A DNA stretch of 64,000 nt from Verrucomicrobiota bacterium (GTDB taxonomy: Bacteria; Verrucomicrobiota; Verrucomicrobiia; Limisphaerales; UBA9464): positions 124,001 to 188,000 of the forward strand of contig CANGKZ010000004.1 in assembly GCA_947454705.1 (NCBI GenBank), given 5' to 3'. Under the pieces are notes generated by a model. That model ran no database searches. It saw nothing but the letters and a program-made list of their open reading frames with translations, and was not told the DNA's origin. How positions within the stretch are numbered: the first letter of the stretch is position 1; the number at the start of each line of letters is the position of its first letter. The translations under genes and the position numbers were made by a program. Positions 4,237 to 6,361 of this stretch are shown here, in pieces.

Positions 4237-5280
4237 TTACTCGCGTCCGGCTGCGGCGAGGAACGGCTTCAGATCCTTCATCAGCTCACGGAATCCCTCG
4301 AGCGAGAGCTGTTGGGCCCCGTCGCTCCAGGCTTCCGCGGGGTTCGGGTGCACTTCGATGAGCAGCGCATCGGCCCCCATGGCCACCGCGCCTTTGCAGA
4401 ACGCGGCGACGAGATCCGCGCGTCCACCGCCCTGGCTGGGATCGATCACCACCGGGCAGTGCGATTCCCGCTTCACAATGGGAATGGTGGAAAGATCCAG
4501 CGTGTTGCGGGTGTAGGTCTCGAAGGTGCGGATGCCGCGTTCGCAGAACATCAGGTTCGGATTGTCATTCGCGAGCACGTACTCGCCGGCGAGCAGCCAT
4601 TCCTCGATCTTCATGGAAAGCCCGCGCTTGAGCAGAATGGGCCGCCCGGTTTTAGCAGCCGCCACCAACAGCTGGAAATTCTGCGCGTTGCGGGCGCCGA
4701 TTTGGAGGATGTCGGCGTACTCGGCCACCAGCTCCACGTGATCCTCGGAGAGCAACTCGGTGATCACCGCGAGTCCCGTGGCCTTGCGGGCCTTGGCGAG
4801 GAGTTTGAGTCCCTTTTCGCCGAGCCCCTGGAATTCGTACGGCGAGGTGCGGGGCTTGAACGCGCCGCCGCGCAGGACGGTGGCTCCGGCTTCCGCCACC
4901 GCCTCGGCCGTGGTCATGAGCTGACGCTCGCTTTCCACCGAACAGGGACCGGCCATGATCACGCATTTTTTCCCACCAATCACCACCGGGGCGCTGTTCC
5001 GTTTCGTGCCGGTGGCGGGGGGGAGGGTGATGGTGGAGTTCTGCGGATGCGCCTCGCGGCTGACCAGTTTGTATCGTTTTTGGATCCGGCTGACGCTCTC
5101 CACCTGGGGCCAGGCGGCGAGGGACTCGAGGGAGGCGTGCTGGCGTTCGTCGCCGATGGCGCCGATGACCGTGCGGGCGACCCCGCGCATGACGTGCGGG
5201 GTGTAGCCGAGGCGTTTGATTTCGGCGCAGACGGTGTTGACCTGCTGTCGGGTCTGTTGGGGCTTGAGGACGATGATCAT
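4237..5280 (-). CDS. aroF: 3-deoxy-7-phosphoheptulonate synthase (DAHP synthase)
   Basis: MIIVLKPQQTRQQV...; KKCVIMAGPCSVES, LRGGAFKPRTSPYEFQGLG, DPSQGGGRADLV motifs of AroAII/KDPGal-like DAHP synthase. Confidence 0.92.
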   Translation of the reverse strand: MIIVLKPQQTRQQVNTVCAEIKRLGYTPHVMRGVARTVIGAIGDERQHASLESLAAWPQVESVSRIQKRYKLVSREAHPQNSTITLPPATGTKRNSAPVVIGGKKCVIMAGPCSVESERQLMTTAEAVAEAGATVLRGGAFKPRTSPYEFQGLGEKGLKLLAKARKATGLAVITELLSEDHVELVAEYADILQIGARNAQNFQLLVAAAKTGRPILLKRGLSMKIEEWLLAGEYVLANDNPNLMFCERGIRTFETYTRNTLDLSTIPIVKRESHCPVVIDPSQGGGRADLVAAFCKGAVAMGADALLIEVHPNPAEAWSDGAQQLSLEGFRELMKDLKPFLAAAGRE

Positions 5281-5348
5281 GTTCGGAGCGGTTTGAGGGA
5301 TGTGGCGTGGTTTGTTTGTTGGACGGGAGAAACGCACGGCCGCTGGCG

Positions 5349-5381
5349 AAACAAAAACGCCGCCAGCGGGAGCCGGCGGCG
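5349..5381 (-). terminator. Intrinsic terminator (attenuator) in the aroF leader
   Basis: Minus strand CGCCGCCGGC-TCCC-GCTGGCGGCG-TTTTTGTTT; 10-bp stem (one G.U), 4-nt loop, U tract, 68 nt before the aroF start. Confidence 0.8.
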
Positions 5382-5399
5382 GTGAGGCACAACTTCAGT

Positions 5400-5483
5400 T
5401 CATGCGCCCACGCACCGACCGGCCCGGCTAAAATAAAAGCCGAACCAGAATGCAAATCGGTAGGTGAACGCGCTGAAACTCAC
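5400..5483 (-). CDS. Putative aromatic-amino-acid leader peptide of aroF, (M/V)SFSAFTYRFAFWFGFYFSRAGRCVGA
   Basis: GTG at 5483-5481, TGA at 5402-5400; 7 Phe, 2 Tyr, 1 Trp in 27 residues; ends 18 nt before terminator hairpin. Confidence 0.72.
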   Translation of the reverse strand: MSFSAFTYRFAFWFGFYFSRAGRCVGA

Positions 5484-5492
5484 AGCGCGGGC

Positions 5493-5521
5493 AACATGGC
5501 CAGTCCCCACGTCGGAGTCAA
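5493..5521 (-). promoter_or_regulatory. Candidate promoter for aroF leader transcript
   Basis: Minus strand TTGACT (5521-5516), 17 nt, CATGTT (5498-5493). Confidence 0.4.
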
Positions 5522-5590
5522 ATCGCCCTTGGCCGTCGTTCCTTGGACTTTGGACTTTGTTCGCCCTTCCTCGTGCGCTTCGATGACGGC

Positions 5591-6361
5591 ATGCCGAAGA
5601 GCACGTGGGTGTTTGCAGCGTTTTTTTCGATGGTGCTGATCCTGATTCTCGGGGGATTGCAGATTCGGGAAAAGGGGCGCGCCTTGGAGGCGGCCGAGCA
5701 GGCGGCACTCGAAGCAAAGAAATCCGTCGAACTCGCCGCCCAGACCAACGCGGCCTACCTGGCCGAAGTGGAGGCGCTGAGGAATCAAGCGACGGAACTT
5801 CAGCAACAGGTCAAGGCCGCTGCGGCCGATCGCGACACCCTCAAGCAACAAATGCAGGCGGAGCTGGATTCCAAGGAAGTCACCATTTCCGAGCTTCAGG
5901 GAAAGCTGACCCTCAGCATCCTGGATCGCATTCTCTTTGATTCCGGTCGTGCTGAAGTGAAACCGGAGGGACGCGCGGTTCTGAAAAAGGTCGCCGGTGT
6001 GCTTGGGAAATTTCCGAACCGACCGGTTCAGGTCATCGGCCACACCGACAACGTCCCGATTCGCGGCCGCACCCCGGACGGATTCTCGGACAATTGGGAG
6101 CTTTCCGCGGGGCGCGCCGTGTCGGCGGTGCGCTTCCTGGTGGAGCAGGCGGGGGTGGATCCGCACCGGATCTCCGCGGTCGGGAGCGGCGAGTTCAAGC
6201 CCATCGCCGACAACGCCACCGCCGAAGGCCGCGCCCGGAACCGTCGAATCGCCATCGTGGTGCTGCCCGAGGAACTTGGATCGGCGGATATTCCACGCGT
6301 GAAACCGCAAGAAATTCAAAAGCCGGTCGAAAACCCGGACGCTGGAACCCCCACGCCCTGA
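5591..6361 (+). CDS. OmpA family protein with N-terminal TM helix and coiled coil (MotB/OmpA-like)
   Basis: VQVIGHTDNVPIRG...NWELSAGRAVSAVRFLVEQAGVDPHRISAVGSGEFKPIADNATAEGRARNRRIAI. Confidence 0.87.
   Translation: MPKSTWVFAAFFSMVLILILGGLQIREKGRALEAAEQAALEAKKSVELAAQTNAAYLAEVEALRNQATELQQQVKAAAADRDTLKQQMQAELDSKEVTISELQGKLTLSILDRILFDSGRAEVKPEGRAVLKKVAGVLGKFPNRPVQVIGHTDNVPIRGRTPDGFSDNWELSAGRAVSAVRFLVEQAGVDPHRISAVGSGEFKPIADNATAEGRARNRRIAIVVLPEELGSADIPRVKPQEIQKPVENPDAGTPTP

Follow-up and report, generated by a model that had tools for sequence, protein, structure and literature searches.

The window analysed here, a stretch of 64,000 nucleotides (C4:124001-188000) from a Verrucomicrobiota genome of 5.4 Mb, carries on its minus strand an aroF-type DAHP synthase gene (4237-5280), which is the putative regulated gene of the locus and whose product combines a ferredoxin-like domain (PF18152) with a catalytic domain (PF00793) and has its best PDB relatives in 1rzm, 1vr6, 3pg9 and 4grs. 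Upstream of it on the same strand, an ORF of 27 codons (5400-5483) runs from a GTG (5483-5481) to a TGA (5402-5400) and encodes the putative leader peptide VSFSAFTYRFAFWFGFYFSRAGRCVGA, which contains seven Phe, two Tyr and one Trp. The first-pass annotation of this DNA had reported the same ORF and composition, and coordinates and sequence match exactly; the longer, antisense-type ORF (5400-5717) in which it had placed the leader is present, but it is merely the leader frame extended upstream to a TTG. Conservation and the aromatic peak of the family mark F10, F12, W13, F14, F16, Y17 and F18 (5430-5456, minus strand) as the candidate control codons. A divergent OmpA-family gene, with its start near 5543, lies on the opposite side of the leader.

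A promoter-like sequence, TTGACT-N17-CATGTT, spans 5521-5493 on the minus strand, with the predicted -35 element at 5516-5521 and, behind a 17-nt spacer, the predicted -10 element at 5493-5498. The CATGTT is weak, indeed too weak for a strict promoter scan, and in most relatives a TAnnnT stands at the same place. The predicted -10 element would imply a transcription start near 5486. A start downstream of the terminator, below 5349, had been named beforehand as an argument against attenuation; the predicted promoter lies instead upstream of the leader.

Between this promoter and aroF the minus-strand RNA offers three helices in the classic order. Segment 1 (5451-5480, about codons 2-10) is the 5' strand of a protector helix, P0, in which 5480-5451 pairs with 5423-5396 (-30.6 kcal/mol) and which represents 1:2. 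Segment 2 (5396-5426), the tail of the ORF, is common to P0 and to the antiterminator 2:3, in which 5426-5403 pairs with 5392-5369 (-37.9 kcal/mol); this pairing had been drawn before in a shorter form. Segment 3 (5369-5392) is the 3' strand of the antiterminator and takes in the 5' arm of the terminator. The 3:4 helix, CGCCGCCGGC-TCCC-GCTGGCGGCG-TTTTTGTTT (5349-5381), is an intrinsic terminator with its stem at 5381-5358 followed by a U-run; it lies where the first-pass annotation had located it and is the sole terminator-like site within 5200-5700. Folding also gives a small hairpin, P1 (5425-5442; CGGCT-TTTATTTT-AGCCG), that holds the codons for F16, Y17 and F18 in its loop. The leader of the window folds with z = -4.8 and dozens of species show the arrangement in front of this gene, which confirms that ORF, helices and terminator go beyond chance.

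Orthologous DAHP synthase loci, collected from the protein family and from genome contigs at one per species, yielded 85 distinct upstream regions from the Limisphaerales/Pedosphaera group of the Verrucomicrobiota. We classified them by a rule on architecture that ignores amino-acid content (TTGAC-N16-18-hexamer, an ATG or GTG 4-16 nt later, an ORF and a terminator). Sixty of the 85 regions pass, of which two with wrongly chosen starts were removed to leave 58 leaders, and several regions that fail the rule also show a leader by eye. After removal of near-identical sequences, 48 non-redundant leaders were used in the statistics. The peptides are 20-32 residues long, and the stop codon lies about 17-20 nt ahead of the terminator stem (median 19 nt). 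In four near relatives F10, F12, Y17 and F18 are identical, and across the 48 leaders the pairs of the terminator stem are kept in 95% of cells. At two loci, L047 and L054, the stretch about 120 to 50 nt upstream of aroF retains promoter, start codon and terminator but has lost the aromatic middle of the leader, as though by deletion.

The first-pass annotation had expected relatives to keep aromatic codons as well as competing stems, the latter with compensatory changes, and so they do. RNAalifold on a MAFFT alignment recovered the terminator and no other helix, as the leader part has diverged too far, and the helices were therefore tested by swapping partners and by counting pairs explicitly. 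In P0, arms paired with their own partner at -21.0 kcal/mol and with partners from other species at -15.8 kcal/mol (p = 2.9e-10); for the antiterminator the values were -23.5 and -19.3 kcal/mol (p = 6.7e-7), and the terminator (p = 4e-8) behaved likewise. A control pairing of the start region with the terminator arm gave no own-partner advantage in this test (p = 0.42). Real leaders also out-pair synonymous recodings of the same peptide in P0 (p = 2e-12), in the antiterminator (p = 5e-14) and in P1 (p = 2e-6). With phylogeny handled by the removal of near-identical leaders alone, two-sided pair changes in P0, P1 and the terminator number 119 versus 73 in shuffled sets, more than at any slid register, and affect nine of nine pairs of P0; under the same treatment of phylogeny the count for the antiterminator plus P1 is 81 versus 61, weaker because part of the antiterminator is nearly invariant. 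P0 and the antiterminator overlap in 96% of the 48 leaders. Mutually exclusive 1:2, 2:3 and 3:4 helices, as well as an intrinsic terminator that separates the leader from the structural gene, are thus present here as in attenuators of the trpL/pheL type.

The hairpin P1 had previously been proposed as the main 1:2 protector helix. The hairpin exists, but the helix that excludes the antiterminator is P0, and the swap test is weaker for the P1 arms (p = 8e-6 vs p = 3e-10); P1 was therefore rejected in that role and is a real extra hairpin that carries control codons.

The aromatic signal of the leaders is bound to the reading frame. Over the 48 leaders aromatic residues make up 23.6% in the leader frame versus 6.1% and 9.8% in the other two, and 306 in-frame aromatic codons were counted versus 149 +/- 8.5 in dinucleotide shuffles. 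Phe, Tyr and Trp occur together in 39 of the 48 leaders, with means of about 3.5 F, 1.7 Y and 1.2 W per leader. Aromatic codons are most frequent at 10-14 codons ahead of the stop, and Y/F-Y/F-F is the usual form of the last control triplet. The preference among synonymous codons is reversed across the 48 loci, UUU and UAU being favoured in the leaders and UUC and UAC in the downstream aroF: UUU accounts for 76% of Phe codons in the leaders versus 19% in the DAHP synthase genes behind them, and UAU for 58% of Tyr codons versus 16%. The ORF has the codon-rich character of trpL/pheL-type leaders and is predicted to be translated.

This translation would probably start without a leader of its own. 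In all 58 leaders the start codon lies 6-12 nt after the predicted -10 element (search range 4-16 nt), and therefore the 5' UTR would measure about 0-5 nt and leave no room for a Shine-Dalgarno sequence; a motif resembling one was found in 3 of the 48 leaders. When the ORF was picked by its aromatic cluster instead of by the promoter, a TTGAC was found 23-42 nt before the in-frame start in 79% of leaders versus 1.6% of control windows. Leaderless mRNAs have 5' UTRs of 0 to about 7 nt and lack a Shine-Dalgarno sequence; as judged from the predicted start site, the peptide is probably leaderless. Some Verrucomicrobia have been listed as scarce in Shine-Dalgarno sequences (PMC10783764). Some lineages lack the leader and have a promoter directly ahead of aroF, about 40 nt upstream in six loci. 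In these (L079, L083, L086, L087, L098 and L099) a TTGAC-N17-TAnnnT ends 9-12 nt before the aroF ATG, so that the aroF mRNA itself may be leaderless, and the two kinds of loci may represent a switch between directly expressed and attenuated aroF.

When a covariance model was built from the 48 leaders and run against 116 genomes of the order, it matched in 72 of them at E <= 0.05; the weakest of these matches are probably due to chance or to the terminator only. All of the 30 strongest matches in the order directly precede a DAHP synthase; ten of them lie outside the 85-leader set and again encode aromatic-rich leaders. As in attenuators of the aroR type, the gene behind the leader is that for DAHP synthase (PF00793 and PF18152). 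In the genome of the window the model has a single strong match, and no similar leader was found there ahead of pheA or of either trpE-like gene. The other DAHP synthase family protein of this genome, which belongs to another subtype and is encoded at G000:C2:70443-71327 (L001), likewise lacks an aromatic leader. Outside the order, a search of a phylum-wide sample gave weak matches only, and in neither of two such matches inspected by eye was a DAHP synthase ORF present. One locus from another class of the phylum (L124) has a leader ending in DAHAVYFWFFYFSAGPRKWG and a terminator GGGCCGC..GCGGCCC-TTTTCTTTT that by eye are comparable to the family; its DAHP synthase is about 55% identical to that of the window, and the resemblance may reflect shared ancestry, transfer or convergence.

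To model the effect of ribosome position, we considered as decisive the state in which the RNA ends in the terminator loop and segment 4 is absent. In this state, placing the A site 9-20 codons ahead of the stop gives a minimum-energy fold with the antiterminator in 88-96% of leaders; the share is 0% for an A site within five codons of the stop and 54% when there is no ribosome. The model thus flips to antitermination once the ribosome stalls at least nine codons before the stop, and a stall at the aromatic peak, 10-14 codons before the stop, would still permit the antiterminator. For the window with the whole terminator included, modelled stalls at F12, F14 and F16 lead to the antiterminator and a ribosome at the stop leads to the terminator; a stall at the last control codon, F18, no longer yields the antiterminator at equilibrium. 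In most relatives, once segment 4 is included, the terminator still prevails at equilibrium for most stall positions, and therefore co-transcriptional timing would be needed, as in the classic systems. According to the model, stalling would free segment 2 and a ribosome at the stop codon would mask it.

The sequence itself, its conservation, the in-frame enrichment, the covariation and the geometry of the helices make it very likely that the DAHP synthase gene of the window is under ribosome-mediated transcription attenuation, and the comparative tests support what the first-pass annotation had proposed, namely attenuation of the pheL/trpL type by Phe and Tyr (and also Trp) codons. Transcription would begin just ahead of the leader GTG, and a ribosome would load at the (nearly) 5'-terminal start codon and trail the RNA polymerase. 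With plentiful charged tRNA-Phe and tRNA-Tyr (or tRNA-Trp) it would reach the stop codon and cover segment 2, whereupon the 3:4 terminator would form and transcription would end near 5349. A ribosome stalled on the aromatic codons would already have melted P0, the duplex of segment 1 with the ORF tail; segment 2, thus released, would be able to pair with segment 3 while segment 4 has yet to be transcribed, and the antiterminator would block the terminator and let the RNA polymerase enter aroF. In the absence of a ribosome, P0 would compete with the antiterminator and favour termination. As read from the DNA, ribosomes short of Phe, Tyr or Trp probably switch aroF on.

The same elements could be read in other ways. 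If the terminator acted constitutively as a simple attenuator, or if it closed another transcript, the aromatic ORF might be a coincidence of a single-stranded region rich in UUU and UAU, and the U-rich codons of the leaders (UUU 76%) would indeed also keep a loop unpaired. However, the enrichment is limited to the frame of the ORF, the control positions also hold UAC, UUC and UGG, and the start, the stop spacing and the frame of the ORF are kept in many species; nor does the ORF list of the window contain any annotated-looking minus-strand gene with its 3' end at the terminator. We therefore regard such a coincidence as very improbable. An ORF coding for a functional small protein, with the RNA folds as a by-product, would agree with the conserved length and reading frame and with a pN/pS of 0.54 among four near relatives; this seems slightly less probable still, since just the aromatic character and the helix-forming codons are conserved while the peptides otherwise diverge freely, and since the pairing advantage is lost on synonymous recoding.

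A small-molecule riboswitch or a T-box controlling the terminator, with the ORF unrelated to it, would likewise account for a structured leader with terminator and antiterminator alternatives. Against this, the leader gives chance-level matches only in Rfam and belongs to no family there, the ORF itself makes up the structured region, no non-coding core is conserved, and strong sequence conservation is confined to the helix arms, so that we give this explanation next to no chance. We also consider it rather unlikely that the leaders amount to a distinct variant of attenuation, in which a leaderless peptide would read Phe, Tyr and Trp alike at the first step shared by their pathways, the start-proximal codons would serve as segment 1, the 5' end, folded onto the tail of the ORF, would also gate ribosome loading at the 5'-terminal start, and the terminated RNA or the peptide might in addition act in trans, as has been described for trpL of Sinorhizobium meliloti.

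Attenuation by a translated aromatic leader, the reading that we prefer, has relatives in several known systems. In Corynebacterium glutamicum, a member of a different phylum, the aroR leader peptide with its Phe-Tyr-Phe sequence precedes the DAHP synthase gene aroF, and stalling under Phe limitation was reported to raise transcription (PMC4046766); aroR attenuation is also covered in PMC11802643, which cites Neshat et al. (2014). The likeness to the Verrucomicrobiota leaders, with their F, Y and W residues, is one of description, and common descent is not claimed. The uORFC-13-1 motif upstream of aroF follows the same idea, with a terminator, promoter-like elements and a predicted uORF that holds Phe codon(s), but it differs in its ribosome-binding site and in its count of 'at least one' Phe codon, and it comes from Acholeplasma and environmental sequences only (PMC8632094), whereas the leaders described here have no room for such a site and represent three amino acids. 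The first-pass annotation knew of no leader-peptide attenuator for DAHP synthase in this bacterial group, and this holds for the group and not elsewhere. With pheL-pheA and trpL-trpE of E. coli the family shares the four-segment logic of 1:2, 2:3 and 3:4, control codons and a stop beside segment 2 (PMC11802643); it differs in the target gene, in the lack of a Shine-Dalgarno sequence, and in that the main cluster of control codons lies between segments 1 and 2, in an additional hairpin, and not within segment 1. A leaderless leader peptide is known from S. meliloti trpL (rnTrpL/peTrpL), where the 5' end of the attenuator RNA is the ATG of the leader ORF (PMC7298713). That 5' end is reported while the one in Verrucomicrobiota is predicted, and the S. 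meliloti leader responds to Trp only and acts on trpE. Among open-licence papers we found no leader-peptide attenuator described for Verrucomicrobiota. The mechanism is classic; the family of DAHP synthase attenuators in this phylum appears to be undescribed and somewhat unusual in layout.

Annotation overlooks the leader, as Rfam has no family for it and gene callers do not pick up so short an ORF. For Verrucomicrobiota it provides a concrete example, open to testing, of attenuation that senses amino acids: how fast ribosomes translate the Phe, Tyr and Trp codons probably tunes the committed step of aromatic synthesis. Moreover, the predicted leaderless start bears on the coupling of ribosome and polymerase without a ribosome-binding site in a phylum that includes Shine-Dalgarno-poor species.
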